From contig JAOVFP010000016.1 of the NCBI GenBank assembly GCA_025738555.1, positions 372,001 to 436,000 of the forward strand: a DNA stretch of 64,000 nt, in the 5' to 3' direction. Origin of the DNA: Cyathus striatus. Lineage: Eukaryota > Basidiomycota > Agaricomycetes > Agaricales > Nidulariaceae. Positions within the stretch are counted from its first letter, which is position 1; each line of letters opens with the position of its first letter. The position numbers and the translations under genes were made by a program. The notes beneath the pieces were generated by a model. It was not told the DNA's origin. It searched no databases and saw only the letters and a program-made list of their open reading frames with translations. Shown piece by piece: positions 3,598 to 44,822 of this stretch.

Positions 3598-5349
3598 ATG
3601 AACGCATTCCTAGCTATTCCCAATGAAATTTTGGAAGAAATATTTTCGCATCTAAAAGTAAACGATTTCGTTCACCTGGTTGTCTGCGTTGAAGTTTTAA
3701 CAGATAATCGATAATCTAGGGATACCCTCGAGATCTCAGTCTTATCAGATTAACTTGCAAATCCATGAACAACGCAGTAGAGCTCCACTTATTTCACGAT
3801 ATAGCTCTTTGTTACAGAACTGAAAATCCGGAAAGGCTCATTCATCAGTTGGAAGCGTTAGCATACTCCACCTGGGGCTCTGCCATCAAACATGCACGAT
3901 CGCTTACCGTTGAAGCTCTGGCGGCACCTGTGTGTTCCTGTGGAAATATAATACATTCAAGTGTAAAGATATACTCTTACGCATGCATGCGATTATTGAA
4001 GTCCAATGAATTATTGGAGCCCATGAGGGCAGTGTTATCGATGGCGGTTGGAGCATTGAAGGGAGTATCGATTGTTAGGTAAGCACGATTGACGTACAAA
4101 ATGCGAGTTATCGTTACTAACACAATTTATGAAGATGGAATATTAATGGTGCCAGAAAAGGAGAACCTGAATGGGTTCGCGACGAAGTAGTCGCCGGACT
4201 ATCTCAAATAACGAGCTTGAAATCACTGAAGATAGAGTTTGACAAGCTATTAGATCCCGGCTGCTCTCCTATACGCTTTCACTCCATCCCTGCTCTGGCG
4301 GAACTTTCGATCATAGCGCTTAACCTTAACGTTAAGGAGTGGGATTCTGCATTCCATGGTTTACCTGATTTTGCCAACCGAAGTTCTCGATATCTTACAA
4401 AACTTCACCTAGAACGGCACTCTATTATTAAGCGCACCCCGTTGTACCGTTCTTGTTCTCATATCGAGACATTGCTTCAGAACGCCCTGCCTCTAGAAAA
4501 TCTCACTGGACTTACGGTCGTTGGATATGCGCTCCTAATATCAGACATAACAAGACCCCATTTCCAAAATCTGACGTCGTTATCCATTCAAAACGGACAA
4601 GATCCAAATATACAAGAGGAAAACATCATTGCTGCGTGGGGAAACGGAAAGGACGTCACCATTATCGAGCCTGGGACTGACATCTGGACCGGATTAACTG
4701 AAGAAAAGATTTGGCTTCAGGAAATAGCCATCGACGAACCAACGGAAACCCTGATACAATATCTTAGAAGTTACTCAGGCTTACAGCGCATGACTATACA
4801 CGGAGCCGTTTCTTATACCGATAATCGCTCAGATTATATTGCCAGGCGCTTTTATGAACTTGCGTTGCAGAGACATGTTCAAACATTGGAGATACTCAAA
4901 ATTGAACCGAGTTATGAAGGGAAATGGTGCTTTGGGGAACATAACGCAGATATTATTCAGAGTCTTACTAGCTTGCGGAAACTATCTATAGCAACAGCCA
5001 GAAACAACACAGCTGAGCACAACACCTTCAATAACGATGCTATGGTAAGTTTAGGTATTATTACTACTGTACTACTAGACTTCTTACTTAACTTAAGCAC
5101 GTATTACTCAATGCCGCCTGTTCACTTTCCACGCTAAATCTTGTCACAATACTTCCCGTGTTATCACGCAAGGAGCGGAATCAGAATGAACTCCAACTGG
5201 TTACTGACAAAATTTGTCAGACTATAGAGGGATTTGGTCCTCTGGAAGCTTCTAAATGCCACTTAATCATTCACGTTGCGCCTGTGACTTATCTCGGTTC
5301 TAGTCGTCCAATAATACCCTGTAGAGCAGGCCTTCTGCCTGCACTGTAG
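3598..5349 (+). CDS. F-box protein with divergent LRR-like tail (copy 1)
   Basis: Likely substrate adaptor for an SCF ubiquitin ligase. Exon 1 (3598-3657) encodes MNAFLAIPNEILEEIFSHLK, the first half of an F-box. After a 62 nt intron, exon 2 (3720-4078) continues GYPRDLSLIRLTCKSMNNA and the rest of the domain. Exon 3 (4135-5044) carries weak leucine-rich units (ITSLKSLKIEF, LTSLRKLSIAT). Exon 4 (5098-5349) holds ACSLSTLNLVTILP and the family motif GFGPLEASK. Intron positions match copies 2, 3 and 4. Unlike copies 2 and 3, the last residues (PCRAGLLPAL and stop) are encoded by a short GC palindrome at about 5322-5350, so the native C-terminus seems replaced. The substrate is unknown. Confidence 0.75.
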
Positions 5350-9046: not shown

Positions 9047-10164
9047 TTTGGGCAGATCAGCGATCAGCTAAGGTGCTGGCGGATGGTATTGAGGAAATTG
9101 AGCGGCGTGTACGATTCTTACTTATACATGTTTTCCTTGAGCGCTTAAATATCATCGAAACGAGAACTAATACTGTTTGCGTTACCGTACTGCTCGGCAC
9201 CGGGGTGAAACGGATTCAGGTTTGTAGCTTCATAAACTTAACGTACGCAAATGAACAAAGTTACGCACATTATTATTTTAGATTTTCGAACATAGGGAAT
9301 CATACAATGTCGTAGATTCTTTCATAGTAAGAGGGTTCCTTTCAAACTCGGGTGTATGCGCTTAATGTCAAAACAGTGGCATCTTCGTGGCTTGGCAGTA
9401 GGTAAGTACCCCAAATAAGATGTGGCTCATTGCAGTAACATCCCGCTCAACAGTACACGCACAGCACTCCAATGCCGCTCGTGACGGATTCTGAGGCTTA
9501 AAGGAACCTCGCCATTGCCGCCGCGCTCGGTTCAAGTACTAGGTGTTTCTGAGTGAACAAGGATGCAATTTGGAATCAGAATATACGTACACCAGTTGAT
9601 TGAGATTAAGCAAAACATGACTGAGGAAGAATTAAGATGATCACCTGGTGGAGGTTGAACGAGAGTCAGACATTGGTCAGACAGCTCGTGGAATGTTCCG
9701 GGACATAGCAACACGCGGTCACTACCGGAAACCCCCGGGCCCCGGGGGGCATTAAGCGGATTGCCGGCCCTATACCCGACGATGAAAAATTGAAAATCGA
9801 CTGAAATTTATTGTCGAACTTGGCAAGTTGAACTTTCAGTCACCTCCTTTCATATATTGGCATGATTAAGTATATCGCATTTTTTCTTAATGCCTAAATC
9901 ATTTTAGCAATGAATCAAACTGTACAACAGTGAGCGGCACAGAATGCGGACGTGGCATTGCCAGACGCACATACATGCTTAGCACCATCGAATCCTCAGT
10001 ACTCAGTACTCAGTGAGTACAACTCAAACCTTCAACATTTGCTTCGAAAACTGCGGCGACCTTATGTATTCGTATCCTTTTCAAATTTGATATATCATAC
10101 TATGTTGTCCGATGTTTATCACTCTCCCCAGGATATAAATGTCTAGTCTGTCGACATCGGATCT
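9047..10164. other. Intergenic, divergent promoter region with GC-rich palindrome
   Basis: Lies between the minus-strand P450 and plus-strand F-box gene 2. Nothing coding is recognised. A G/C palindrome (CCCCCGGGCCCCGGGGG, 9732-9748) stands out from its AT-rich surroundings. Confidence 0.4.
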
Positions 10165-11989
10165 ATGATGGCATTCAAAACATCAATACTCTCCCTTCCG
10201 TTCCATATTCTCGAAGATATCACAACCGGGGTACGCAATGCAGTCATTTTATTTATATGCCATTTAACAATTATAAATAATCACAAGATAAAACTCAAAA
10301 AATCACTTCGACTAGTATGCCATAATTTCAACGACGTGATAACTCCTCAAGTCTGTTCACGCGCTGTCTTACAACTAAGAGGTACCTCAGGAGACTTCAT
10401 CAACATTCTATCAGAGTTCGCCATTGGAACTTCCAAGAGCCATTTACACACAAAATTCCTCACAGTCCGTGATATATACCCTCCTGATCGCGAGAAGCGC
10501 TTCCAGTTTATCCCTGGTTCTTTTATGGGATACGAGAACGAAGATGACTGGGATGTTATTCGAGACTTGCTTCCCATTGCTATCTCAGCTTTTAAGAACG
10601 TGGTTTCTGTAAGGTGAGTCGTTTTCACATAATCTAACGCTTAGAACCCCTTCTAACGCATATATCTGCCAAGGTGGTACATTAGAGAATTCAACACGGA
10701 GAGCTGGATACCGACAATGGTTATTAACGGGCTGTGCAACTTGCCACAGATACAAAATCTGGATGTTTACATGGAAGGAGGGAGTAACTGGCATCCAGTC
10801 AACCTAGCCTCAATTCCACCACTTCAAGAGCTAACTCTACGCACCTGGACGTTCTACCGAATTCCCAGCGACAGCATGATTCTAGGGCTGTCGGAACTAA
10901 TCGAAAAGTCATCCAAGAATCTTGTAAAACTGACTTTTCTGAATTACAACGACGCTTTTGGACCTAGAGATATATCGTCTCTTGATATCATTCCTAATTT
11001 TCCTATTCTTCAAATTCAAGAGTTATCCTTGACTGGATACGTGATAACGCAAAATAGCACTCTCATACCCCATCTCCGCTCATTGACGTCATTGTCCATA
11101 ACCGACTCACAGCATCCAAGGCCAAACTTCGACCCGTGGAATGACCGCCTGCCCGTCGTAGATGATGTTTGGGTGGCTCTGAAAAGAGAAAAGATCCATC
11201 TCTCTACAATATCCGTTGACACTCCAACGTCGAGCCTAATTCACTATATAAAATCATACACTGGTCTAAAGTCTCTTTCCTTGACCGCTCCAAAGCGAGA
11301 TTCATCATCGATATCGAAAGAATTCTATAACGCACTTGAATCGCAATCGGCTTCTCTTAAAACGTTGGAGATAAAACCACACTTTGAGGGTGAATGGTGC
11401 TACGAAGAACATAACTCCCATGTTTTCTTATCTCTCATCAATTTGACTCGCCTTTCAGTATGTGTTATAGCCGATCCTTACTTTAGGCCTATTACGATAA
11501 CTGATGAAGAAATCAATGCTGAACTCGAGGCGCTCATTCGAGGAGAAACTGGGGAATCACGCTTAGATTCATATAACTTCTCTGTTATACGTTCCTAACC
11601 TCCCATTAGAAACGGATACTAACGTCTGGACAATAACTTCTATTTAGAAACCACTCATCGAGATGGCATCGATGCTTCCTAAACTTCAAGTGCTTACGAT
11701 TTTAAGCGCTGATTTAGGAGAAAATGAAGGAAACTGGTGCGGAACGGACAGAAGGAAGCACGCTGTTCCAGTCTCAGAACTGATTCAACAACAAGTCACC
11801 ACTATAGGTCCACTTAATCCCGCTGAGTATCAGTTCAATATTGTGAACGGGAGAAGATATACGGTACAACAGGATACAAGTGGTAGATATTGGTATTGTG
11901 ACTGTACATCATCTGAAGACAAAGAGTTGGTCACGGAGGACCACAGCGCTTGCAATCCTAAATTTTGTCGCAATGCATGGTATAATTAG
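10165..11989 (+). CDS. F-box protein with divergent LRR-like tail (copy 2)
   Basis: Paralogue of copies 1, 3 and 4. Begins MMAFKTSILSLPFHILEDIT (F-box start). A 57 nt segment, 10231-10287 (GTACGC to CACAAG), falls where copy 1 has an intron; it is in frame, so it may be spliced out or retained. Then KKSLRLVCHNFNDVITPQV completes the F-box. Splices follow at 10613/10674 (VSVR then WYIREFN) and 11583/11648 (donor GTTATA, acceptor TTTAG). The middle exon has LRR-like stretches (LQELTLRTW, LKSLSLTA). The last exon carries MLPKLQVLTILS and the family motif IGPLNPAEYQF, ending at 11989 in a Cys-rich tail (WYCDC). No disruption is visible. Expected role: SCF substrate recognition. Confidence 0.78.
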
Positions 11990-12123: not shown

Positions 12124-13269
12124 CTAAAAATCGGACTCATCAGAGTCCTCCTCACGATCAGGCTGACGAGGAGGAATCTCTCCTGAATCCATCATAAAAC
12201 CTTCCAAATGATTCTCCCAGCGACCTTCATAATTCATCTGAATGATGTTTGGTTCTTCAAGTGGGTTGTATCTGTCTCCGAGTCCACTAACGTCTCTTGC
12301 CCATTGTCGTCTCTCTTTCTGTTCTTGAGTAGGATTTCGAGCCCGGAATGCGGCTTTGACACTGTTCCAACCGGGTATTGCGCCAGAGTCTTCGACAGGA
12401 GCGCAACCTGTTCGATATACATTGTTCAAGGAATCATAAAGGTGGGGCGATATAACGAACATACCTGTGGCAGAAGTAACGAGGGGACGAGCTGCGCTGG
12501 CCATTTTTTGTCCACGAAACTCGAGGAGGTGCTCCCAGTGGTCCTGTAATCGTTGTGAGCTTTAAAGGGTCGAATTAAGGCACAATATTACCCCAAAGTC
12601 GTAAAGATATAACAACGGAAACGCCTTGCCGGTAGCCGGATCAGTGGTCAACGCTTTCAATCTCCCTTCGTCTCCATAGACGTCCTTCAACTTAAGTATC
12701 TCTTCGAATTCGATTTTTCCTCTCGATCCCAAGGTCAACTCATGTTCAAGGCTATCCCCCTGAATGATACGCAAGACTTGATCTCGCATTGCCAGAATTC
12801 CGTAATCATTTCCGGAAGGCGATGGGCGAAACACTGTGAAGTCATGAAGATGCGTAAGCTGCCATGGGCCCATGATGTATTGAATCGTGTAATGAAGCTG
12901 CCGAAATGTGAACCACGAAGGTACATCGAAGGTGCGTTTGATGGGTGGATTAGAAGAACCAACGAGGGTCAAATCGAACGTGTATGAATATCTGACGAAA
13001 CGATAAGACTAGATAACATGTCGACATCGTGTACTCACTTTCCACAATACTTTTTGTGAAATTGCCAGTCCTATCATTAGAAGGTGATGCCAACATCAGA
13101 GAAGGGCGAGCATACAAGCGTGCGACTCGTACCGTTTTTTGACAGTCTTTACTGCAATACATCGCTGGAGGAACGGCGTCCCTGCATCTCGTACATCGAA
13201 ATTTCCCATCTTTCTGGTGACACCAGCCACATTTGCGGATAATTGGCTGAGCTGGAGAAGTAGACATCG
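12124..13269 (-). CDS. MYND zinc-finger protein with plasmid pRiA4b ORF3-like domain
   Basis: Five-exon protein of about 300 residues. The N-terminus (start 13269, MSTSPAQP) is a MYND finger: CGWC, then CTRC, then CSKDC in exon 1, completed in exon 2 by DWQFHKKYC, so the C-C-C-C-C-C-H-C set is complete once a 63 nt intron is removed. Exon 3 begins YTFDLTLVGSSNPPIKRTF and includes FTFRQLHYTIQYIMG, HLHDF and LLYLYDFG; exon 4 gives DHWEHLLEF. These are hallmarks of the pRiA4b ORF3-like fold (ordered YDFGDxWEH motif), also found in mobile-element genes of bacteria and in many fungi. The last exon begins CAPVEDSGAIPGW and ends in an acidic tail at 12124. The MYND finger suggests protein-protein contacts; molecular role unknown. 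Confidence 0.85.
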
Positions 13270-13707
13270 CTGGTGCTGTGATTGTGGTAAAGGGTGAAGT
13301 TGGAGGAAAGAACAAGAGAGGCACGAACAAGGCCCAAACTCAAATTTTAATTTACGACGGATAAGGAACGGTCACGTGATAATAATATGTACGCTTATGT
13401 ACACTTATGTAAGTAAGTAGTACTTCAACTTTGCATTGCGCAACAAGTAGATTTGAAGTAGAACTTAAGTGGAGTACACGTAAAATTATGATGAAAAGAT
13501 ACCAAGGCCTGGGATTGAGATAAACCAAGCGATTCTTTAAGCTCACGATTATACTATATCTTTTAAAAACCTTGAGACTTGAATTCTCGTTGAAGACTGA
13601 AGTAGACAATAAAATAAAATATTACTATTTTATTTACTGCACAACAATTGCAAGCTGAACAAAAGTACACGTAGTTAATACGATAAAGTAAGAAAGGAAG
13701 CTTGAAA
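13270..13707. other. Intergenic between two minus-strand genes
   Basis: Contains the promoter of the MYND gene and the 3' region of the secreted-peptide gene. No further gene is seen. Confidence 0.4.
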
Positions 13708-16050
13708 TTAATCAAGTTCATCGATCCCGCGTTCTCCCATATCTCGTCCATATAGCGTGTCCTCTAAATCGCGAACATAAAGCTCGTCTGAGCCGTCAAG
13801 TTCACGTCCGTAGAAACTACCTCCCGTAGCCCTGTGTATTTGTAAGATTAATTTCACATAAATCGATGAATTATAGATTGAAAATAAAAGGCTTACAGAA
13901 TGTTGAGCCCGGTTTGAGCAGCAGCTTTACCAACAGGTCCAGTTGCCACTTTCTTAATACTATTCGCAACACGCTTGGCCCCGTTTTTAACCCCATTCTT
14001 GAAGCCATTCCACGACCTTTCGTCAAGCTCAACCCAGTCACGATCATATAGAGACCCATCAAACTCCCGAGCATTGATCTCATTCAAGTCTTCGATGTCA
14101 CGGCCGTAGAAGCTACCTCCCTGGGACCTATGGAGCGGTTCACCTAAACACCGCTACTTTTGTACAAGATAAATTACTCACTCATATTTTAACCTACTCT
14201 TTATTTGTCTTACAGAAGTGTTTGTATTAGGGATATGAATAAAACTGTAAGACAGATTTTTCTGAAAGTCAAAACTACGCGAGATATTTTTCTTTGTTCG
14301 AAAGATTTTGGCCACCTTATGTAATGAATGCCTAATTAGGGAATTATATTATGTAATATATCAAATGCACGGGCCATTCCAACGCCAATCTCCAAGCTTT
14401 TCACCAATTCCTCTCCCTCAAGCTCACCGAACTCATTATCACAATTTATTTCAGAGCTTGAAATTTCTGTGCTATCCTTCCTTTAAGTTGATTTGTATAT
14501 ACTTGTAGGACTCAAATATACAAAGCTCGACCCAGCTTGGTTCTCCAAAGTAATTATATCATTACCTTCACTGTTTACAGAGAGAAGTTGGAACAATTTG
14601 AATAAAGTAGTGATGGTCCTCTTTCTGATTCTTAGAATGATTTATATTGTATTTGAATTTGTGAGCTCTTTGCCATGCCGAATGTGCCACTTGGTATGTT
14701 AATGGATTTCACCAATTCCTCTCCCTCAAGCTCACCGAACTCATTATCACAATTTATTTCAGAGCTTGAAATTTCTGTGCTATCCTTCCTTTAAGTTGAT
14801 TTGTATATACTTGTAGGACTCAAATATACAAAGCTCGACCCAGCTTGGTTCTCCAAAGTAATTATATCATTACCTTCACTGTTTACAGAGAGAAGTTGGA
14901 ACAATTTGAATAAAGTAGTGATGGTCCTCTTTCTGATTCTTAGAATGATTTATATTGTATTTGAATTTGTGAGCTCTTTGCCATGCCGAATGTGCCACTT
15001 GGTATGTTAATGGATTTCACCAATTCCTCTCCCTCAAGCTCACCGAACTCATTATCACAATTTATTTCAGAGCTTGAAATTTCTGTGCTATCCTTCCTTT
15101 AAGTTGATTTGTATATACTTGTAGGACTCAAATATACAAAGCTCGACCCAGCTTGGTTCTCCAAAGTAATTATATCATTACCTTCACTGTTTACAGAGAG
15201 AAGTTGGAACAATTTGAATAAAGTAGTGATGGTCCTCTTTCTGATTCTTAGAATGATTTATATTGTATTTGAATTTGTGAGCTCTTTGCCATGCCGAATG
15301 TGCCACTTGGTATGTTAATGGAATTGGTTCTGGTTGCTGTTGCCACTAGTTGCTTCCAGTGTTGGAAGCTTATGCCATGTTGTGGTAGCTTTATCAGCTT
15401 TCACTGGCTGCATGTATATGATAGTTTCTCAAGCTGTTCTTCTTATATTGACCCATGGTATGTGTACATATATAGGAATTAAGAGGAACAGCAAAAACCT
15501 CTTCGCCTGTACTATATATGTAGTAATACTTACATGTTACAAGCATAGCGCCAGCTTGGCTTTCAGGCGCTTAAAATAAATTCGTTCAGACAGTAAATTG
15601 GCCGCTATACAAAAGTAGCGGTGTTTAGGTGAACCGCTCCATAGACATTATATTGTAAAACCAGTTTAATGTGTAGAAAAGTAGTAGTAGGTCTACATAC
15701 AGAATGTTAAGTCCGGCATTGGCGGCAGCTTTTCCAACTGGGCCAGTTGCCACCTTTTTAATAGTATGAGCGACCTTTTTTATCCCTTTCTTGAAACTAG
15801 CCCAGGACCGAGCATCCAACGCTTCATGCAAGTCCCGAAGTTCGAGTAAGAATTCTCGGCCATAGAGCTCCTCCAAATCACGGCTGCATAAAGGATGTAA
15901 GTCATCCATGCCAATGATATCCCGGCGAGTAATATCTCACACAACAATCTGTTGACCCACGTCAACATTTCCAGCGGGGTGTGGAAGAGCGGTAGATAAA
16001 AGGGGGAACAATAAGAGGGTAGAAGCGGCAATAGTGTTAAGTTGAACCAT
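13708..16050 (-). CDS. Secreted precursor with two cecropin-like cationic helical modules
   Basis: Four exons (16050-15941, 15883-15701, 14127-13897, 13831-13708) total 648 nt, exactly 216 codons with the stop. The N-terminus MVQLNTIAASTLLLFPLLS is a signal peptide. Two modules follow, each an acidic linker then a cationic helix beginning SW after an arginine. Helix 1 (residues about 63-98) starts SWASFKKGIKKVAHTIKK; helix 2 (about 136-175) starts SWNGFKNGVKNGAKRVANS. Both end KKVATGPVGKAAA then N/Q and GLNIL. Linkers repeat YGR and RD/RE words (LEELYGREF, SFYGRDIEDL, SFYGRELDGS). W2, FK at 5-6, an amphipathic basic helix, a GP hinge and an Ala/Gly-rich second half are the layout of insect cecropins. 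Introns 2 and 3 split the same codon at the end of each module, so exons duplicated as units. I infer an antimicrobial or signalling peptide precursor; I know no named fungal family for it. Intron 2 holds a 1.5 kb element. Confidence 0.75.
14131..15641. mobile_element. Non-autonomous DNA transposon with TIRs and TA target duplication
   Basis: The ends are inverted repeats of about 35 bp: TGGAGCGGTTCACCTAAACA continuing ACCGCTACTTTTGTA on the left, and its complement on the right (from about 15606). TA flanks both sides (14129-14130 and 15642-15643), as in Tc1/mariner-type insertion. No transposase is encoded. The interior holds a three-copy 308 bp tandem array. It lies in intron 2 of the secreted-peptide gene, with its edge in the splice acceptor. 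Confidence 0.85.
14399..15322 (+). repeat. Tandem repeat, 3 units of 308 bp
   Basis: Three consecutive 308 bp units start at 14399, 14707 and 15015, each beginning TTTCACCAATTCCTCTCCCT and ending ATGTTAATGG. The same 69-codon frame is identical in all three, showing near-perfect identity and recent amplification. That frame has no recognisable domain and is not annotated as a gene. Confidence 0.92.
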
Positions 16051-18281: not shown

Positions 18282-19730
18282 GTCAGTTTGGATATGAGCT
18301 ACAATTTCGAGGTCGACAACAGATATTAAATACCTTTGCTTGTCTTCGTATTCTCAGCGCTATGTTCAAACTCGGATGGCGAGACCGAAAGTAATGGCTT
18401 CCATTAGGCCTGCCGCCCTGTATTTGGTACTGATCACCTGTTCTGTGTCATATGCTCCACACGAATGTTGTTTCTGTCTTACTAAAGACCAAAGTTCCAA
18501 ACCCTATATTAAGCATATCCTAGAAAATGATATGTAAGCCACACGATGTATGTTAGCTTAGCAGGCTTGTGCCCGAGTTACTATCATGTAAGCTGCTTAC
18601 TTGGAACCCGGGGAGTTTGTAATTTCTTTGTCCTTGAAAGCGATATAATGTGTAATACAGAGTTATCTATATTGTACGACAGTGGGAAAATCCCAGTCTA
18701 GCCCTTGTATTCGAAGCTCTAACACCGTGGAAAATATCACAGCGAAATGTAAACATTCCACATGAGATTTAGAAGGTAACCACGACATACTCATTTCTCT
18801 AATGCCGTACAATTAAATTTAGACTTATATAGCGATATCCACTCACACTGTGACAAACTCCAGAATGAAGGTTCAGGACATATCAGTATGGTACCTATGA
18901 TAGACGGCTTTTGAAATTCTCAGGCCAGGGCTTCCAGCAGTGGGATATTGGTGAGATAAATCCAGGGATATTACACTTAACAGCAGCAATGTGTGCAGGT
19001 TGAAGGAGCATTGCTAAAATTCACTGTTTATGAGTGAGACTCATATGAAAGCATAAATACTTAAAGAAGTCCAAGTATTATAAGTGTATTTTCCTGCCAG
19101 TGGACGAATGTTTGAAAAGCCAGTTCATAACAACTGGCAGTTCATCCGTGACTATGGCCACACGTGCAACGAGACTCCGTATCGACGTCTCATAATGCTT
19201 GTAAGTAAGTAACGAGTCTTCTGTCACTGCTGCAACAATATTACACGTTAACCATGATAGTGTCAACCCGGTGTCAACGATATCGGCATAGCTACTGTAG
19301 TTATTCTTTTGTAACGTCGATAGAAGCATAGCATAAATGACCATATTGCATTTTTTATACCACTTCTTTTAATTTGTGTCATTCTTGCATCAACGTTACA
19401 TCACAACATTTGTCTTTTTTTGATGAGACCGAACAAAATGTAAGCACGTGCTAGCTGTCACGTGGCATTGCGACGCTGCAGCTGCGCACCTCCGCTTGCT
19501 TCACTTCCGAACTTCCACGCAAACTTCCATGTTTACTCGGATCTAACGCTGAGTACCACAGGTCTACTATATATTCCCCATATGAAAGGTGCGCATTTAT
19601 CCAGCCGTGACGGTGTGCCCGTATGCATATACTCCCTCGAGTTGCCTCACTGATTAGGCCACCAAGCCCAACTTTTTTCGAGAATATTTCAATCGTCCTC
19701 CACTCTTAACCCAGTATACAATATAGGGAT
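18282..19730. other. Intergenic; short unassigned minus-strand frame
   Basis: An 88-codon minus-strand frame (19078-19344, MVIYAMLLSTLQKN) has no recognised domain and could be a gene relic. The remainder shows nothing coding. Confidence 0.35.
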
Positions 19731-21465
19731 ATGCAGAGTTCTCTTCTTTCATTCCCAAATGAACTTCTTCAAGATATTCTTCAGTTGGCAAGTCCTTACA
19801 TCCAAAATGACAATCCGCTAGGAGGCTCTGTGGTATCATTGGATCGTCAACCATCAACTATGCCGTCTCTCCGCCTTATTTGCAAAAGATTTAATAATGC
19901 AATAGTTCCACTGATGTATTCTCACACCTTTATCCGACATAACTACCTTAAGGACGACGAATTCGCTGAGTGTCTCGAATCGCTAGCTGCTGGGACACAT
20001 GCTGCTGTCTACTACGCCACGAAGGTTACAGTTTTTACCCCAGGACCTCCTTTGGAAATGGGGAAGCTGAGTGATGAAACCGAGAAGAATTTAAAGCTGG
20101 AAATGATTGAAAGAGTGAAGAAGTTACTTCCTGTTGCGATTAGCAAGTTTGAGTGTGCCACAACGGTTAGGTGAGTCAAACTATACTATCTGTATTTGAC
20201 TACACCGAGTCGAAGCCAAAACTTACAATGAAACCGATAAATTAGATGGTGGATTTTCGATCCTGATTATGACTGGAGTATAGACTACGTAGTCTCAGGA
20301 ATTTCAAAAATGCCCTCATTGACAGCATTAGAAATATCAATCCACTCAACCGATACAGATTCCTTTCGAATTGATTCTATTCCTCCATTAGAAGAATTCT
20401 GGATCCGTGACGACTCAGGCCAGGATGTCTTAGAACGTGGTCGGATTCAAGGTATCCCCGAACTCATCGCAAAATCCTCAACTTGCTTCCGGCAGTTAGG
20501 ACTCGAAACTTGCATTTTATACGACAGAGATCCGTTACTCCTCGATCCATATCTTCAACTCACACCCCCTCTTCATATAACACACCTGACCTTGATGGGC
20601 TATTTTGTGGAACTGAATAGTGCCATTTTACCTCACCTTCGGTCTCTTTCATCGATTTGGATTGAGAACTACGCGGATGCTAGGACGCGAGCACGAAGAT
20701 CAGCCGAACAATATGGCGAACCACATCACCAGGAGCCTGAAGTAGTCACTGTAGACGATATCTGGAAGGGCCTGAATCGTGAAAAGATCCACCTCACAAA
20801 GATTGACGTCGACGAACTGCCAGAAAGTCTATTTCACTATTTGGATTCGTACACCGGCCTCAGTTCTCTTTCGATTGGAGATGCTATGTGGGTTCCAGAA
20901 GCGCAATCTTCTCGTGCAGCTCGTGCGATCTACTCTGGCGCCTTACGCAACCACGCACCTTCCCTTGAAAGATTATCGATCCTGTCACAACCCGATTCTG
21001 AATGGGCTTTCGGGGACCATAGTGTTTCTGCCATTTTATCGCTCGTTAACCTCAAGTACTTGTGCATGACTGTGGACTACAATTTGCGCGATGATTTAGC
21101 TGACCGGGATGATTATGAAGACGTAAATGTCCCCTTCCCAATTGCTTATTACGATCCTAACAATTCTGCGGTTGGTTTATTCCCTAAGCCGACTGGATTT
21201 ATTGCTTACCGTTTTATAGACACGACTGATTAAAACAGCCACTTTGCTTCCAAAGTTAGAAACACTATATATAGCGGGAGATGACAGTGTTTACAAAAAT
21301 TTCGATGGCAAGTCTGTGAACATCCCTGGAGATAAGATTCTTCACAGTCAAATCACATCTTTCGGGCCACTGGATCCAGCGAAATACACCTTTATCATCG
21401 AGACCTTTCAGCGCAGGTACATGCTGCAGAAGTGTGATGGCAATTTTTATTACACTTGCTTTTAA
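19731..21465 (+). CDS. F-box protein with divergent LRR-like tail (copy 3)
   Basis: The cleanest member of the local family. Exon 1 (19731-20170) starts MQSSLLSFPNELLQDILQLA and carries MPSLRLICKRFNNAIVPL, the second half of the F-box. Exon 2 (20246-21170) begins RWWIFDPDYDW and holds leucine-rich stretches (MPSLTALEISIHS, LHITHLTLMGYFV, LRSLSSIWIEN, YTGLSSLSIGD). Exon 3 (21220-21465) gives TRLIKTATLLPKLETLYIAG, the family motif ITSFGPLDPAKYTF and an aromatic C-terminus (FYYTCF). Introns occupy homologous positions to copies 1, 2 and 4; copy 4 is closest in sequence (shared GYFVxLNSxxLPHLRSL). Expected to act in the cytosol or nucleus as an SCF adaptor; target unknown. Confidence 0.82.
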
Positions 21466-28250: not shown

Positions 28251-28798
28251 AATAATACGACATGAGCACCTTACTGCTTAAAGTCCTACTATTTGTCAAT
28301 TGTTGTAACACTGCGTTATTCTTGCGATATAGGCTAGAGGGGCGGACGTGCGAGTCAGAGTCAGCTGGATGTCTGGTGAGATGAAATCAAAACGGAACTT
28401 AAAGAACCAGACCACAGAACCCTGGCAGGTGCCTTGTGGGAAATTGTTATTGTAATATTCTCACACTCACGGTCCGAGACCCGACGTGGGGGGCCCGTCG
28501 ACGATAAGTACAGCTTAAGATCTACAAATTACAGACATCATTGATAGACCCAACATCGACCGGTCTATGAGAGCCTTGCTGCGCAACCTCAAGTGTACAT
28601 GCATGTATGCACAAACTCTGTGACAAAAAAGTCAAGTTCTGGAATGATTCAAGAACGTCATGTGCTTCTGAACTTCAGAACGCCCACACACGCCCACAAT
28701 AAAAATTGTAAGTTCATGCAACTCCAACTTATCGTTTATCTTCATGTTTCTTCCCCACCATTGTGTTCAAGTTTTGCTGCAGCTATTAACCGAGATAA
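28251..28798. other. Intergenic, upstream of broken F-box copy
   Basis: No gene recognised; presumably carries the decayed promoter of F-box copy 4. Confidence 0.35.
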
Positions 28799-30524
28799 AT
28801 GGTGGACAATGGCATTCTGTCGCTACCTCTCGAAGTGCTTCAAGAGATCACAAAGTTGGCAAGTGCCTCTCTCGCAACTAATGATTCTAGTCCAACTGAC
28901 ACACCGTTCTATTAACAAGGCGCCTTTGACCTCACTTTCATCTCTAAGACTTACATGCCATAAATTCAACGATGCCATTATTCCTCAGATATTTTTCCAT
29001 ACCACCATATGCACCGACTTCATATTCAATCATGGCGACAATTTTGCAGATTTTCTTGAATCACTTTCTCCTCGAAATCACGCAGCTGTTAGACATGCTA
29101 CAAAGGTCTCAATTCAATCAGTGGGACCATTAATTTCTTCAGAGAAGGAGTATTATAATGAAGAAACGGCAGAGAACGAAAAGGGGTACAATGTGGAAAT
29201 GTGTGATCCTGATCACCCAGTCTCGCAAAGGATCAAAAGCTGCTTCCACGTGCAATAGCTGCCTTTGAGAAAGTAACTACCGTTAGGTGAGCTCGCCTAT
29301 CTTGTTCGTGCTGCCATTTTACTGATATTAGCAGATGGATCATCGAGAATTACGCTACATCTGAATGGACGAGGTATTGGGTCATATCAGGCATTGCTCA
29401 AATGCCGTCCTTGACGACATTAGGTCTGACATTGGAGGGTGAAACCGCAACTCCCATTCATATACACTCTATTCCTCAGTCTCTTGAGAGTTTTTGGATC
29501 GTCGATGATTCTGGTATCAATGTCCTACAAGACGGCCGGATTGAAGGGATTCCTGAAGTGATTGCGAAGTCGTCAAGTGATCTATATCATATATCATTCA
29601 ATACTTGTGTGTTATATAATGGGGACCACATAACGATGTACCCTTTCCTCCAACTTACCTCACCTCTACAAATAACGCACCTTAATACCATGGGATACTT
29701 CGTACAGCTGAACAGTACAGTTTTACCTCATCTTCGCTCGCTTAAATGTTTGTGGATGGGTAACGGTGCCGATCCCCAAACGCGAGCTGTACGGAATGCT
29801 GAGTTTTATCGTAGACCAGTTGATCAGAAACCGGACTTGACGCTCGTAGACGATATCTGGAAAGGATTGAAGCGAGAAAGAATACTTCTCACGAACATTA
29901 GTCTCGAGGAACCGACGGAAACTTTCATACAGTATTTGAAGTCCTATTCCGGCCTTAACTCTCTTACAATTATGGATGCATTGTGGGTTCCTCGATACGG
30001 GAGTGAAATTCCCTTGAAAGCCTCTCAATTTTGACTGTCGACCACTCAGGAAAATGGTCTTTTGGGGACGATTGTGCTTCTATGCTTTTAACTCTCGTCA
30101 ACCTCAAGCATCTGCTAATTTCTGTATCGTATGATTTACACCAAGATCTTCCAGACAGAGATGACTACGAAGACGAGGACATAGCTCCCCCCACAACTTT
30201 ATACCGTACTAACAATTCTGTAGTAAGTCCGACCTAGCCATTGATGTATCGATGACTTTTAAAATATTACAGGCACGACTACTGGAGATGGCCGTTTTAC
30301 TTCCAAACCTTCTCTCCCTTTATATAGTTGGGGATGACTCGTTTCATCTGAATTTCGGTGATAAGTACATCAACATCCCCGAACAAAAGATACTTGACAG
30401 TCAAATTACGTCTTTTGGACCGCTGAATCCTAAGAAGTATCTGTTTTTTGTGGAGACTCATAAACGGAGATACAGATTACAACGCTGGGGACTGAAAGGT
30501 GAATTTTGGTACAGATCCTTTTGA
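28799..30524 (+). pseudogene. F-box gene, broken copy 4
   Basis: Closest to copy 3. The frame starting MVDNGILSLPLEVLQEITKL (28799) stops near 28914, while the matching continuation (LTSLSSLRLTCHKFNDAI) is in another frame. A second shift occurs near 29240, where the expected LLPRAIAAFEKVTTVR lies in a different frame from the preceding RIK. A third break near 30000 combines a deletion of roughly 57 nt with a frame change between ALWVPRYGS and the SLSIL block. The splice sites at 29286 and before 30274 remain, and the last exon (LLPNLLSLYIVGDD, ITSFGPLNPKKYLF) is open to 30524. Three independent lesions make a functional protein unlikely. Confidence 0.8.
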
Positions 30525-30653: not shown

Positions 30654-31757
30654 TCAAAGAGTACTCCAAGCATTATCCATAGGGATAATGGCACCGCTGA
30701 CAGCCTGAGCCCCGTCAGAGATCAAGAACAACATCATACTTGAAAAAGCGGTAGGATCAAGCATCCCTCTTCCAGTTAAGGGATTCATAACTAGTTCCGC
30801 TACCGCCCTAACATTTCGGCGTCAGTCAGGGGAAACAACGTATAATAATGATATATACTTTGTCTTCATCATGGAGCCCAGATCGAACTTGGAAAAGTCA
30901 GGTGGGGCTTTCATGGGTGCAGAAATTGCTGCAACGTGTATTAAAGGAAACAGTAAAGGGATAATGCGATTGCGACTCACCTCCAGGGCAAATTGCATTG
31001 CACCGAATACCGTCAGATCTCAAAAGGAACGCAGTGTTCTTCGTCACACCAACCTGTTACCACACTGATAAGCAATCTACTCAACCATATACTAAAAACG
31101 ACTCACCAAACCATGCTTACTCGCCGTATAAGCCACACCAGCAACAGCTCCACTAGTCCCCGCCTTACTCGCAACATTCACAATGCACCCGCCCTTCTGC
31201 TTCTTCATAACCTTCACAACCTCTCGCATAAGCTTCATGGGGGCAGTGAGATTGACATCGATAACTTTCTCCCAGATATCATCCGTAAATTTATCAACAG
31301 ATGCTAGATGGTCCGAAATACCAGCGATGTTGAGCAGCGCATCGATTCTTCCTCCGAATGCTTCAAGACACTGCTCTACGACTTGCGCTGGGGCGGAGGC
31401 ATCTGTGAGGTTAGCTTGGAGGAACACGAAGTTCTCTGACGAAATAGGAGGGGGAGGTGAAATGTCGACGCCGAAAACGAAGCATCCTGAAGCAAGGAGT
31501 GCTGTAGTGGTTGCCAGGCCCACTCCGCCAGATGCACCTGTGACGATGACAATCTGCCACAGGAATTAATCAAAAAGCATGAACAGCTGGCTAGGGGGGG
31601 GCAACACAAGAACCTTTCCATCAAGACCAGCCGAGTTTATCGTCGTGGGCGTAAACGTATTATTTGGGTTTTGCGACCAGAACTTAGCCAAGTAACGATA
31701 GCATAAGTACAAGGAGATAATGAGACGCCCAGTCAGCTGTTGGAAGAGGTGTAACAT
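30654..31757 (-). CDS. Short-chain dehydrogenase/reductase (tandem copy A)
   Basis: NAD(P)-dependent oxidoreductase. Start at 31757: MLHLFQQLTGRLIISLYLCY forms a hydrophobic N-terminal anchor, then AKFWSQNPNNTF and, after an intron, IVIVTGASGGVGLATT, the Rossmann TGxxxGxG. ALLNIAG is the NAG motif. SKAGTSGAVAGVAYTASKHG holds the catalytic Ser and YxxxK. Later exons give NTAFLLRSDGIRCNAICPG and the end LTGRGMLDP, GAIIPMDNAWSTL at 30654. All catalytic residues are present and the introns are short. It is a tandem duplicate of copy B, with the same exon plan. The N-terminal anchor is unusual for classical SDRs and suggests membrane attachment. Substrate unknown. Confidence 0.86.
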
Positions 31758-32769: not shown

Positions 32770-33887
32770 TCAAAGAGTACTCCAAGCATTGTCCATAGGG
32801 ATAATAGCACCATTGATTGCTTCCGCGCCATCAGAAAGCAAGAACATAATCATGGTTGTGAAAGCGTTGGGATCGAGCATCCCTCTTCCAGTTAAGGGGT
32901 TCATAACAAGTTCCGATACCGCTCTAACCGTTCGGCGTTAGTCAGAGGAAACAATGTATAGGATGATATGGACTTACTTTATCTTCATCATGGAGCCCAG
33001 ATCGAACTTGGAGAAGTTGGGCGGGGCGTTCATGGATGTGGCAATCGCTGCAAAATGTAAGGAAATATTCCAAGGGATAATACGACGTGACTCACCTCCA
33101 GGACACACTGCATTGCACCGAATACCCTCAGACTTCATAAGGAACGCAGTATTCTTCGTCACACCAACCTGTTGCAGTATTCATAAGCACTCTACTCAAA
33201 CCGTTCACCAAAACACAACTTACCAAACCATGCTTACTCGCCGTATACGCCACACCAGCAACAGCTCCACTAGTCCCCGCCTTACTCGCAACATTCACAA
33301 TACACCCGCCCTTCTGCTTCTTCATGACCTTCACAACAGATCGCATAAGCTTCACGGGGGCCGTAAGATTGATAGCGATAACTCTCTCCCAGAGATCATC
33401 CGCAACGTTCTCAACAGATGCCAGATGGTCTGTAACACCAGCGATATTGAGCAGCGCGTCGATTCTTCCTCCGAATGCTTCAAGACATTGATCGACGACC
33501 AGATCTGGGGCGGAGGCTTCTGTAAGGTTAGTCTGGAGGAATATAAAGTTTTCTGACGAAATAGGAGGGGGAGGTGAAATGTCGACGCCAAAAACGAGAC
33601 ATCCTGCAGCAAGGAGTGCGTTGGTAGTTGCGAGTCCTACTCCTCCAGAAGCACCTGTGACTATGACAATCTTGAACAATGAATTAGAACACAACTTCGA
33701 TCACTCTCTAGACACGTAGTGTACGAACCTTTCCTTCAAGGCCGGACGAATTTATCGTCGTGGGCTGGTTAACCGGTCCACCAACCGAGTTCTTTGATTT
33801 TTGTGACCAAAACTTAGCCATGTAGCAACTGAATAGGTACGACCAGGTGAGGAGACGCCCAGCCAGTTGTTGGAAGATGTTAGACAT
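32770..33887 (-). CDS. Short-chain dehydrogenase/reductase (tandem copy B)
   Basis: Start at 33887, MSNIFQQLAGRLLTWSYLFS, chosen because it aligns with copy A; an internal Met at 33821 (MAKFWSQK) is an alternative. Following motifs: IVIVTGASGGVGLATT (cofactor binding), GVDISPPPP, ALLNIAGVTDHL, INLTAPVKLM, ASKAGTSGAVAGVAYTASK (catalytic Ser, YxxxK), NTAFLMKSEGIRCNAVCPG, LTGRGMLDPNAF, ending GAIIPMDNAWSTL at 32770. Protein similarity to copy A is high throughout. Both genes point the same way, about 2.1 kb apart, consistent with a recent unequal duplication. Probable role in oxidation or reduction of a hydrophobic alcohol or ketone at a membrane; substrate not inferable. Confidence 0.86.
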
Positions 33888-36774: not shown

Positions 36775-39700
36775 TTTAAAAGTCCAAATTTGCTTCAACT
36801 AACATAATGGAACTTCATATTTCCAACTAGTTTCGCGATCTCTTGTATCTCCATATTCCTCCCCATGCCTACGGCAGGTCGTTCTCCGACTAATTCGTCA
36901 GCGTAGAACGCAGCCATCCAAGAATATAACTCAAATCCGCGCTTAGGCACTGCTAGGGGAAGTTTAGGAACGAATAGTGCCGCAAGGACACCCATAAATA
37001 ACACAATAATAACGACCATAATCATTTGCACTGGCTCGATGTCTGCTGTGGACAATGCACGATCGTTGTAGCTCCGTGCGAGATTGTCTCCACTTCCTGC
37101 GAAATAAGGAAGAACGTTGCTGGCATCTGCCATTGCACGAGATATTGCAAATAGATCTTCGGAAAGCACGGTGTATCCCGTTGCTCCTTCGCCCGCATCG
37201 CAATAAGACAAGATAGTAGGAGAAGGGACATAATAAAAATCTCTTCCATTATCCTGATATGTATCAGAATTAGGGTATTCAGATGATATGGTAAGAATCA
37301 CCTTTAAGATTTTATTGACGCTGTTTTGATGAGCGACTGTGTAGCTATATACATAAATGAGCTCGTGACAAAAGGTAACTTCTGGAACTACTTACACTCC
37401 ACCAAGTCCAGTCGAATTAAGCTTCGATTTGACATTAGGATCATCCAATTTTTTCCCACTCAGCCTCTCATTGGAATTATCGTTTACAATGCTAGGACCT
37501 TTCCCGACGATACGTGTCGAGCTTGGTGCACCCACTGTACTATTGTAAACTTCAACAACCCAAGGTTCATAGAGCTCTAGGCATATGGCGGCATCATAAC
37601 CAATGTGCATCGTGTCCCCATCCACGTCAACATCAATATTGCGCAGGAACGTGCCATTCGGAGCATAATCGGTGTTCATACGAACGAGAACTACTTCCAA
37701 AGTTTGCCAGCCATTTCCCTCTTCTCCTAAAATATCGATAAGAATGTCAAGATTCACAACACCACACAGTTATCGCTTACCCATTGTCAGAGGATAACTA
37801 AACAGACTGTGTGCAACGCCATTGTCAGAGAAAGTAGCTACGAAATATTCATGATCAGCTTTCCGCAAGACATTCGTCTAACATCAAAAAAAAAACACAC
37901 CTGACATTGCCAAATCTTCACGCTTGATAGTCGCGGGCAGTGTGTCATTTGGAGCCGTCATATTCGACATATTTAGAGGAGCATTGAAAACACCAGGAAG
38001 AGGCATCTCAAACCAGGAAAATAATCCTTGAAGTGTGTCCCGAGGTACGAAGACATACGTACGATTAGTCGAGCTTCCTCGAAGGATCCTATTACTGGTC
38101 AACTTTACCGATCTTAACGAAAAACATCGAATACGAACATGTCTGCATTTCCATCAGGAATTCTGGCACATTTTATCCTGATGCCCCACTTCGGGAAGCT
38201 GCAGGAACGTAAATTAGTTTCTGGAAAGTAAGTGCTTTTTTATTCAGGTCGGCGGCTCACCGTAAAGTTGAGCCAGGTTCTACACTACTAGTAGCAGCAC
38301 GCTCTATCTGAACTGATCCTTGTTGGGTGCTGTCATGATCATTGTCTGTTGAGACTGCTGTTATTTTCTCGTCGAAAGTTCCGAAACCACTTCCACCGGG
38401 GAGAAGTTGTGACATAATGGTCTCGGCAAAGTATACAGTATTGTTTCCGTAAGTGAAAGAGGAAACAGATGGAAGACCACCATGGGCCGAGAAGGGGGCA
38501 AGTGTCCAAGTGAATCGGGTGTCCTAAGGGATACGTTTGAAAATGATCTTAAGAATTTAAATAAATGCAACGTACATCAAACGAAGCCTTCGACTCGTTA
38601 GCCCTCTGAATATCTACATCCGACATGTCGCCTTTAATGCTAATCTCCTCATAGGTTTCGCCTTGCCGTATTACACTTGTCTTGATTGTTACTACACGAC
38701 CAAAAACGAATGAAAGACATGAAGTAGTCCCAACAAGGAGTAGGAAGAACAAAATAAACAGCGTCCAAGGACGACGACTGGAGCGCAATTAAATATTTTC
38801 ATGATAGCTGAACTGGAAGAAACTCACTCGTAAGTTCTGCGATAATCTCGTGCCGCCCCTTCATAAGTATTACGGTCCCAGAGCAATCGCAAAGCAGACA
38901 AAGAGCTTGTGGCGTCGCTTGTGTGGGCCGCAAGGTCTCGCAACCTTACACCAGGTCCATCCGGAATCTTAGATTGATGAATAACCGTGGCCCAAGCTAG
39001 GTGGCCTCATGTTGAATACTAAGGAAAGTAGACGGTATGAAATAATGCTCACTGGCTGCCTCTAAGATATTCCTCCCCAATTGCAATAGACTAACGCCCA
39101 AGACAAAACCAAGTAACCCACATCCTGCTCCAACGAATAGACGCGACCAGAATAGCGATTTATTCCTTGCGATGACAACGAAAATCTGAAGAATAGGATA
39201 TGCGATAAGACAAAGAACGACATGTATAAGAAGCTGACGCCAGTTGGGAGCTTCGAAGCTAGAAGAGAATGGATGTTTTTTGGGAGGCTTCGGCAGGCCT
39301 AGGGGGAATAAAGAAGGTGATAATTTGGACCCATGGAAGTCCGGCGTCGGAGGTGAACCGAGTCCTTCTTTTCCTACTCCTGCGCCACCTATAGGATATA
39401 GCCTCTCTGGATCAAATTCTGGCTGGGAACTATCATGCACGGCCTCTAAGACAGTAAGATATTGTGACCGTCGTGATAACCGACTGTCATTATATGGAGC
39501 GTCAGCAACAGACAACATTTGCGGTCTTCGGTTCGGGACGATAGGTGCATGCTGTATCCCGCTTTCATCATCAGCAATTGGGGAGTAGACATGGGACTTT
39601 CCAGTGATGCCCATCTTCGAGTGGCTCAAGATAGGCATAGGTAAAGTCGGCGTAGCTGGTACACTGGGAGGAGATTTTGGTGAGGGTGGAAAGCGTGGTC

Positions 39701-40020
39701 CACTGGGGCGAGATCCTGACCTTTTCATAGATATGTAAGCACACAGCAACGAGCCCGATACAGTAAGAGAGGGGAATACTGATACCAATCGACACAGGAC
39801 CGGAGAATGCATGTAAAATGCATGTAACAAGACGAGTGCGTTGGAGTCTGCGGTTTGCACGGCTATTGACGGAGACATGACGAAAACGCGGTGTTGTATC
39901 GATTGTTATATCTCGATTGGATCTTCATGGCTAGTCTGCAGAGCTGAATGCGCGTTTACCACAAGTGTACCTAAGTAATTAGTTCTTGATACTTGACACC
40001 TATTCATTAAATTTGACGGT
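36775..40020. repeat. Segmental duplication, unit 1
   Basis: About 3.2 kb repeated in direct orientation at 44803-48080 plus 49951-50313. It begins TTTAAAAGTCCAAATTTGC in both and keeps an offset of 8,028-8,030 bp along the whole gene. The 3' end (GCAGAGCTGAATGCGCGTTT then TTAGTTCTTGATACTTGACA) is in the second copy separated by a hAT insertion and about 270 bp of other sequence. Confidence 0.9.
36795..39878 (-). CDS. Large multi-exon membrane protein of unknown function (duplicate copy 1)
   Basis: Minus-strand gene of perhaps 800 residues. The N-terminal exon (from 39878) has a hydrophobic stretch (SLTVSGSLLCAYISMKR), a long Pro/Ser-rich cytosolic region (SGPRFPPSPKSPPSVPATP) and a TM pair (LIHVVLCLIAYPILQIFVV, LFVGAGCGLLGFVLGVSLL). 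Middle exons include SALRLLWDRNTYEGAARDY, another TM (LFILFFLLLVGTTSCLSFV), and a probable extracellular portion with N-x-S/T sites (NMSNMTAPND, NSTVGAPSS). The last exon has SYCDAGEGATGYTVLS, then a TM (MIMVVIIVLFMGVLAALFV), ending at 36795. The family is unknown to me. A near-identical copy lies at 44823-47824. Relative to it, a 4 nt difference near 39765 changes the frame at the N-terminus, so the start of this model is doubtful. Confidence 0.6.
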
Positions 40021-44802: not shown

Positions 44803-44822
44803 TTTAAAAGTCCAAATTTGCT

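Follow-up and report, generated by a model that had tools for sequence, protein, structure and literature searches.

In a 64,000-nucleotide stretch of Cyathus striatus DNA (C16:372001-436000, hereafter referred to as the window), the minus strand carries, at positions 13708-16050, a gene whose four predicted exons encode an uninterrupted protein of 215 amino acids (aa), with the stop at 13708. On balance, we lean towards the interpretation that this gene encodes a secreted repeat precursor from which kexin-type cuts at arginines would release two cecropin-like peptides, likely ones that disrupt microbial membranes.

The window gene encodes two linker-helix modules

Following a hydrophobic start, the protein passes twice through an acidic linker and a cationic helix and closes with an acidic tail, ERGIDELD (Table 1). 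The two modules are internal repeats, being 62% identical to each other. The introns, of 57, 1573 and 65 bases, all have GT...AG borders, and the N-terminal stretch, in which the mean hydropathy over 12 residues reaches 2.2, was assigned as a signal peptide by eye. A previous description of the window (the sequence-only reading) had reported the junctions LDAR/SW and LDER/SW, a tryptophan at helix position 2 (W2), F-K at positions 5-6, a shared KKVATGPVGKAAA and a frame running through four exons, all of which we confirmed in the window gene; KKVATGPVGKAAA is identical in both modules and stands alongside W2 and F-K. The module pattern is more than chance, and the modules recur in paralogues.

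Arginine and lysine are divided between linkers and helices

Outside the helices, each of the 12 arginines of the window protein is preceded by L, I, V, F or M at P4 (that is, [LIVFM]xxR, with arginine at P1). When the other non-helix residues were shuffled, the mean number of arginines with such a P4 residue was 3.43, and none of 20000 shuffles reached 12. The flanking positions P3 and P5 are hydrophobic at one of the 12 sites each. The residue that follows the arginine is D or E at nine sites, S at two and G at one, and the second residue after it is L, I, M, F or W at all 12. Furthermore, all 13 lysines of the protein lie within the helices and none outside, the corresponding numbers for arginine being 1 and 12 (Fisher p 2.7e-6).

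Two paralogues have 11 of 13 and 22 of 32 arginines in the same P4 frame (a number reached in none of 20000 shuffles for either), but because the modules share ancestry, and because the motif was seen in the same data before it was tested, these shuffle figures and the binomial ones overstate the number of independent observations. Lysines in the same two paralogues number 11 inside and 4 outside the helices, and 28 inside and 9 outside, respectively. As background, we used 13 other open reading frames (ORFs) of the window, which are stop-to-stop frames and in some cases perhaps include intron sequence; a hydrophobic P4 residue precedes 40 of their 133 arginines. The full motif, [LIVFM]xxR[DES][LIVFMW], surrounds 11 of the 13 arginines of the window protein versus 2 of 138 in other window ORFs.

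An expanded Kex2 motif, LxxR, has been described in which P4 is leucine or another aliphatic residue, P2 is variable and may be Glu, and Asp at P3 is unfavourable (PMC8528282). The window sites combine an aliphatic P4 with arginine at P1 as these substrates do, F and M, which occupy P4 at 3 of the 12 sites, lying outside the aliphatic list of that article.

Predicted processing products

Applying a cut after every [LIVFM]xxR to the window protein yields a signal-bearing first piece, two peptides whose net charge is +7 once the last Arg is lost, and ten acidic pieces, each 5-11 residues long and with a net charge of -2 to -4. Both peptides run across an exon junction to end in GGSFYGR, so that the peptide is not the exon-encoded SW...LNIL alone; the sequence-only reading had placed the peptide end at the exon end, but the natural unit runs on to GGSFYGR in both modules, which makes the peptides longer (Table 1). 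Under the same rule, the C16:919k protein gives five SW peptides, the last of which has 73 residues including a basic tail, and the C16:905k protein gives one SW peptide intact. A P_proprotein domain, as found in kexins, is encoded at two places in the genome.

The sequence-only reading had also predicted a secreted precursor that is cut at arginine. This prediction is now better supported by the confinement of arginine to the linkers, within [LIVFM]xxR, and of lysine to the helices, and processing of the precursor is, as far as can be judged from sequence, well supported. Since the cargo takes its charge from lysine and the cuts fall at arginines in the linkers, the cargo largely avoids its own protease.

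The mechanism that we propose starts from a precursor predicted to be secreted, with units predicted to be helical and, in the uncut chain, an acidic linker helix predicted to lie beside the cationic helix. A Kex2-type protease in the Golgi would cleave after LDAR or LDER and after FYGR, and the last arginine would be trimmed off both peptides. The cut pattern suggests that the acidic linkers would be shredded into pieces of 5-11 residues, the cargo being largely spared, so that the peptides would no longer be masked and the mask would be destroyed by the processing itself. The freed peptides would then act on the membranes of competing microbes outside the cell.

A family of five loci in C. 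striatus

Scans of the 107-Mb assembly (24 contigs) place the window gene in a family of five loci, the others being C16:905k, C16:919k, C15:668k and C4:5.30M (Table 1). The nearest proteins are four hypothetical proteins of C. striatus (Nidulariaceae, Agaricales), P0001, P0002, P0003 and P0004. P0001 is 96% identical over 83% of the window protein used as query and differs from the product of exons 1-3 at 8 of 175 residues. For C16:905k and C16:919k, the models that we spliced from DNA match P0002 (210 aa) and P0003 (426 aa) exactly in length, in support of the splice rules applied.

Among 5.8 billion proteins, no relative outside C. striatus was found (single protein, E<=1; profiles, E<=1 and E<=10); as the protein search needs shared five-residue words, and one profile search scored the 7999 best candidates, distant relatives could have been missed. 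A genome search for other genes sharing the linkers or the tail alone returned, among the candidates scored, known family loci only. A Pfam scan of two whole precursors gave nothing above the cut-off, and a search of a plasmid collection gave no match. The family is likewise not described in the available portions of the literature on basidiomycete cecropin-like peptides, on C. striatus antimicrobials and on Kex2/LxxR mushroom peptides. The statement of the sequence-only reading that no such basidiomycete family had been described thus agrees with both kinds of search. The family of modular, predicted secreted precursors is real and, as far as searched, restricted to C. striatus.

Charge, amphipathicity and predicted structure of the modules

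Together, the window gene and the four other loci provide 12 modules. The net charge of the helix unit is positive in all 12 (range +1 to +7), both window helices being at +7, and the linkers are acidic in 11, the remaining one having a net charge of +1. The hydrophobic moment (18-residue moment, first 22 helix residues) exceeds that of shuffles in all 12 modules (fractions 0 to 0.043, uncorrected). Ten of the 12 modules keep W2 and 11 keep the hinge proline, which follows Gly in six, Ser in four and Asn in one; one helix alignment behind these counts had 11 rows and left out the decayed second C15 module. In the paralogues, the traits named in the sequence-only reading thus hold in part only.

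AlphaFold predicts three helices in the exon-2 module, at residues 2-21 (the linker), 24-46 and 48-55, with a predicted template modelling score (pTM) of 0.50 and a mean predicted local distance difference test score (pLDDT) of 80.7 in the best and 65.2 in the worst of five models; the alignment used had two rows, the exon-3 module being the sole companion. The lysine-rich units are predicted to fold as helix-hinge-helix; the full-length model was rejected for low confidence. With the exon-2 model as query, Foldseek returned a single, meaningless match (E 8). All 12 matches of one helix in the PDB were designed coiled coils, as were 8 of the 14 matches of the helix profile, which also included one CAP18 peptide and unrelated proteins; we attribute these matches to composition.

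Resemblance to cecropins

Cecropins have a Trp at position 2, an F-K-K start, an amphipathic basic helix, a Gly-Pro hinge and a hydrophobic second helix; they are antibacterial, and many members have a C-terminal amide. The window modules resemble them (PF00272) in W2, FKK, the basic amphipathic helix, the Gly-Pro hinge, the hydrophobic second helix and an Ala/Gly-rich end. However, cecropins are insect peptides, whereas the window gene is fungal and its precursor alternates acidic linkers with several cores, and homology is not detectable. In hmmscan, PF00272 matched none of the 11 helices at E<=10 (HMMER filters drop weak matches), and in a genome search at E<=10 its best candidates were two other places below threshold and no family locus. 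On these two results, we reject membership of the cecropin family. The term cecropin-like, used in the sequence-only reading, therefore holds as a description of the window gene but not as an assignment, and the resemblance looks convergent.

Three of the 11 helices match the Pfam families Stomoxyn, CAP18_C and frog Antimicrobial_2, at E 0.03 to 0.13 and far below the cut-off. Shuffles that preserve residue class matched antimicrobial families in 0 of 22 cases (p 0.03 versus 3 of 11). Since these controls also matched Pfam, one of them more strongly than any real helix, the weak matches to antimicrobial families carry little weight. An antimicrobial function of the peptides nevertheless appears likely from their sequence features; the broader proposal of the sequence-only reading, an antimicrobial or signalling role, stays an inference.

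More tentatively, this may be a cysteine-free, cecropin-like defence family, apparently evolved within the genus, in which lysine would supply the charge and hydrophobic-x-x-Arg the cuts, and in which processing would destroy the mask. Known fungal antimicrobial peptides (defensins, antifungal proteins (AFPs) and cylindracin) are described as cysteine-rich or cysteine-stabilised in the portions of the literature available. If the interpretation is correct, mushrooms would have a new chemical class of such peptides, linear, helical and released by processing, which would be convergent on the design of insect cecropins, and the division of labour between arginine and lysine would be a simple, searchable precursor signature that makes precise, testable predictions of peptide ends.

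Conservation of helices and linkers

The divergence between modules is biased towards synonymous changes in the two window helices (proportion of nonsynonymous differences (pN) 0.16, proportion of synonymous differences (pS) 0.62) and in the C16:919k helices of exons 4 and 5 (pN 0.07, pS 0.54). Many module pairs are saturated, and pairs with pN >=0.45 enter pooled figures only; the set omitted the C16:919k exon 3 helix and the decayed second C15 module, and the second window helix was compared minus an insertion of four residues. Between strains the helices show no greater conservation than the linkers, and among four paralogues the first linker is more conserved than the first helix, so that the linkers may do more than neutralise. 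The sequence-only reading had taken the acidic linkers to neutralise the peptides, which remains plausible given that 11 of 12 are acidic and that the first is modelled as a helix beside the cationic one; the pN of the first linker argues against a mere spacer.

Comparison with known precursor systems

Surveys of kexin-processed repeat proteins (KEPs) recognise them by a KR, RR or KK that separates the repeats (PMC6339444, PMC7329392). KEPs occur in Agaricomycetes, and mass spectrometry has detected their peptides in species of Coprinopsis, Lentinula and Pleurotus (PMC9769878). The window gene is similar to KEPs and dikaritin precursors in that a precursor, in our case predicted to be secreted, carries repeated cores between processing sites, but the window protein has neither KR, RR nor KK between its repeats and no dibasic pair outside the helices at all, using [LIVFM]xxR instead, and its cores are 45-49 residues long and clearly cationic. 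Surveys for KR/RR repeats would consequently miss the window gene, and there may be a hidden class of helical peptides in fungi. The C16:919k protein has RR at four linkers and may be listed, unnamed, in the tables of the KEP surveys.

Ece1 of Candida albicans is cleaved at dibasic sites and has eight cores, one of which is a toxic peptide. That peptide, candidalysin, which we set beside the window gene by description, is KEP-derived (PMC9769878) and is an amphipathic helical cytolytic peptide (PMC13426942). Effectors with a Kex2-processed pro-domain share with the window protein the LxxR motif, with Leu or an aliphatic residue at P4 and a variable P2 (PMC8528282); in those, however, a single N-terminal pro-domain is removed, whereas here the motif occurs 12 times and brackets two cores. 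The DELD proteins of Serendipita (Piriformospora) indica are small, secreted and predicted to be helical, and end in RSIDELD (PMC3192844). The window protein ends in RGIDELD, identical at 6 of 7 positions, and two paralogues end in EINELD. In contrast to the DELD proteins, which have 101-135 aa and a regular His/Ala pattern, the window protein has 215 aa in repeated modules and no such pattern (3 His and 18 Ala in 193 residues). Its tail resembles the DELDER stretch of the linkers, ending before ER, and this may be all that the likeness to RSIDELD means.

Alternative interpretations

A number of observations weigh against a precursor of membrane-active peptides. Asp occupies P3 in both sites that would free the SW ends, LDAR and LDER. 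Helix 2 contains a canonical KR (AKR/VAN, residues 149-150), KK pairs lie in both helices, and the second module of C16:905k would be cut inside its first helix, at FKER. The five C16:919k helices have net charges of +1, +1, +2, +3 and +5, four of them thus at +1 to +3. Only half of the modules (6 of 12) have a Gly-Pro hinge. One of the shuffled helices that matched other Pfam families (3 of 22) did so at E 0.004. The C-terminal end of P0001 is annotated differently, without the acidic tail, and the full-length AlphaFold model of P0001 is unusable (pLDDT 35.5). Among the first modules of four paralogues, one of them from the decayed C15 gene, pN is lower for the first linker than for the first helix (0.16 versus 0.31), and between strains the helices are no more conserved than the linkers (14 of 326 versus 14 of 289).

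Some of these points would fit peptides that are released by the same arginine processing and act on the fungus itself, as a hyphal coating or as developmental signals. The weak charge of four of the five C16:919k helices suits a surfactant or fibre better than a membrane-killing peptide, and Ustilago Rep1 peptides coat hyphae (PMC8528282). For most peptides encoded by KEPs no function is assigned, and deletion of kep genes in Coprinopsis gave no detectable phenotype (PMC9769878). We nevertheless consider a precursor of signalling or surface peptides unlikely, as W2 persists in 10 of 12 modules, amphipathicity in all 12 and the hinge proline in 11; that the weak profile matches of the helices are to antimicrobial families only points in the same direction, with little weight. 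The lower variation of the first linker would instead suit a repeat protein that is secreted intact, as a series of acidic-cationic helical hairpins and perhaps as a DELD-style effector, with [LIVFM]xxR[DE] as a packing motif; AlphaFold sets linker and cargo in adjacent helices, and the C-terminus shares 6 of 7 residues with RSIDELD. The linker as an amphipathic packing helix was rejected, however, because the moments of linkers and tails are not clearly greater than those of shuffles (fractions 0.05 to 0.99, 12 stretches). The arginines are spaced irregularly, at 5 to 11 residues, packing leaves the Lys-free linkers and nearly Arg-free helices unexplained, and the His/Ala pattern of DELD proteins is absent; an intact protein is therefore rather improbable.

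It is very improbable that the family is a relic, restricted to one lineage, invaded by transposons and with little present function. Two of the five loci (C15 and C4) are decayed, the splice acceptor of the window gene carries a recent element, and the copy in the other strain is annotated without the tail. Against this, three loci have open spliced frames, several module pairs show synonymous-biased divergence, and our splice models equal independent annotation in length. The processed precursor of membrane-active peptides remains the interpretation that we favour.

A mobile element in intron 2

The long intron 2 owes its length to a mobile element, which the sequence-only reading did not mention (Table 1). 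The element is flanked by a duplicated TA, at 14129-14130 and 15642-15643, and the target TA is part of the TAG splice acceptor. The acceptor AG survives, and the original upstream intron sequence now lies 1.5 kb from it. We take the TA target duplication to suggest a non-autonomous element of the Tc1/mariner type. A twin at C16:438030-438930, 50 kb away, carries the 308-base unit once and shows 100% identity wherever the two were compared, which indicates that either the element inserted or its unit was tripled recently. One element end has at least 40 matches in the genome, at no fewer than about 26 places when matches within 12 kb are merged.

Table 1. Features of the window gene (positions in the window) and other loci of the family
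Feature	Position	Strand	Description	Basis or state
Exon 1	15941..16050	minus	Predicted signal peptide (MVQLNTIAASTLLLFPLLSTALP), then the first part of the pro-region; last codon is split	Signal peptide called by eye
Exon 2	15701..15883	minus	Acidic linker RDLEELYGREFLLELRDLHEALDAR and cationic helix, module 1	Charge, moment
Intron 2	14128..15700	minus	1573 bases, of which 60 remain when the inserted element and one TA are subtracted	
Exon 3	13897..14127	minus	End of peptide 1, acidic linker and cationic helix, module 2	
Exon 4	13708..13831	minus	Remainder of peptide 2, then acidic tail (...ERGIDELD) and stop	
Predicted peptide 1	15701..15807 + 14127-14100	minus	SWASF...LNIL, then SQGGSFYGR; 45 residues, +7 after removal of Arg	
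Predicted peptide 2	13897..14015 + 13831-13804	minus	SWNGF...LNIL, codon split, then ATGGSFYGR; 49 residues, +7 after removal of Arg	
Inserted mobile element	14131..15641		1511 bases; inverted ends, 37-bp arms including TA	
Repeat units in element	14399..15322		Three identical units of 308 bases	
C16:905k			2 modules, 210 aa	Intact, open spliced frame
C16:919k			5 modules, 426 aa	Intact, open spliced frame
C15:668k			2 modules, the second without hinge	Decayed; C. striatus counterpart P0004
C4:5.30M			1 module	Decayed, stop in linker

Neighbouring features

Directly downstream of the peptide gene, an ORF on the minus strand (12950-13339) matches a MYND-type zinc finger at the Pfam cut-off. Groups of ORFs that by eye resemble F-box/leucine-rich-repeat proteins lie at 4133-5137, 10147-11598, 19710-21233 and 28548-30034; one of three tested had a match to LRR_14 below the cut-off. 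A duplicate of about 3 kb (36775-39767 and 44803-47800; 8.03 kb apart, 93-97% identity over the stretches reported) holds two ORFs, neither of which matched Pfam in the one copy tested. Two tandem ORFs for short-chain dehydrogenases (31092-31565 and 33128-33700, minus strand; Pfam match for the second) are 84-89% identical in DNA over the stretches reported.

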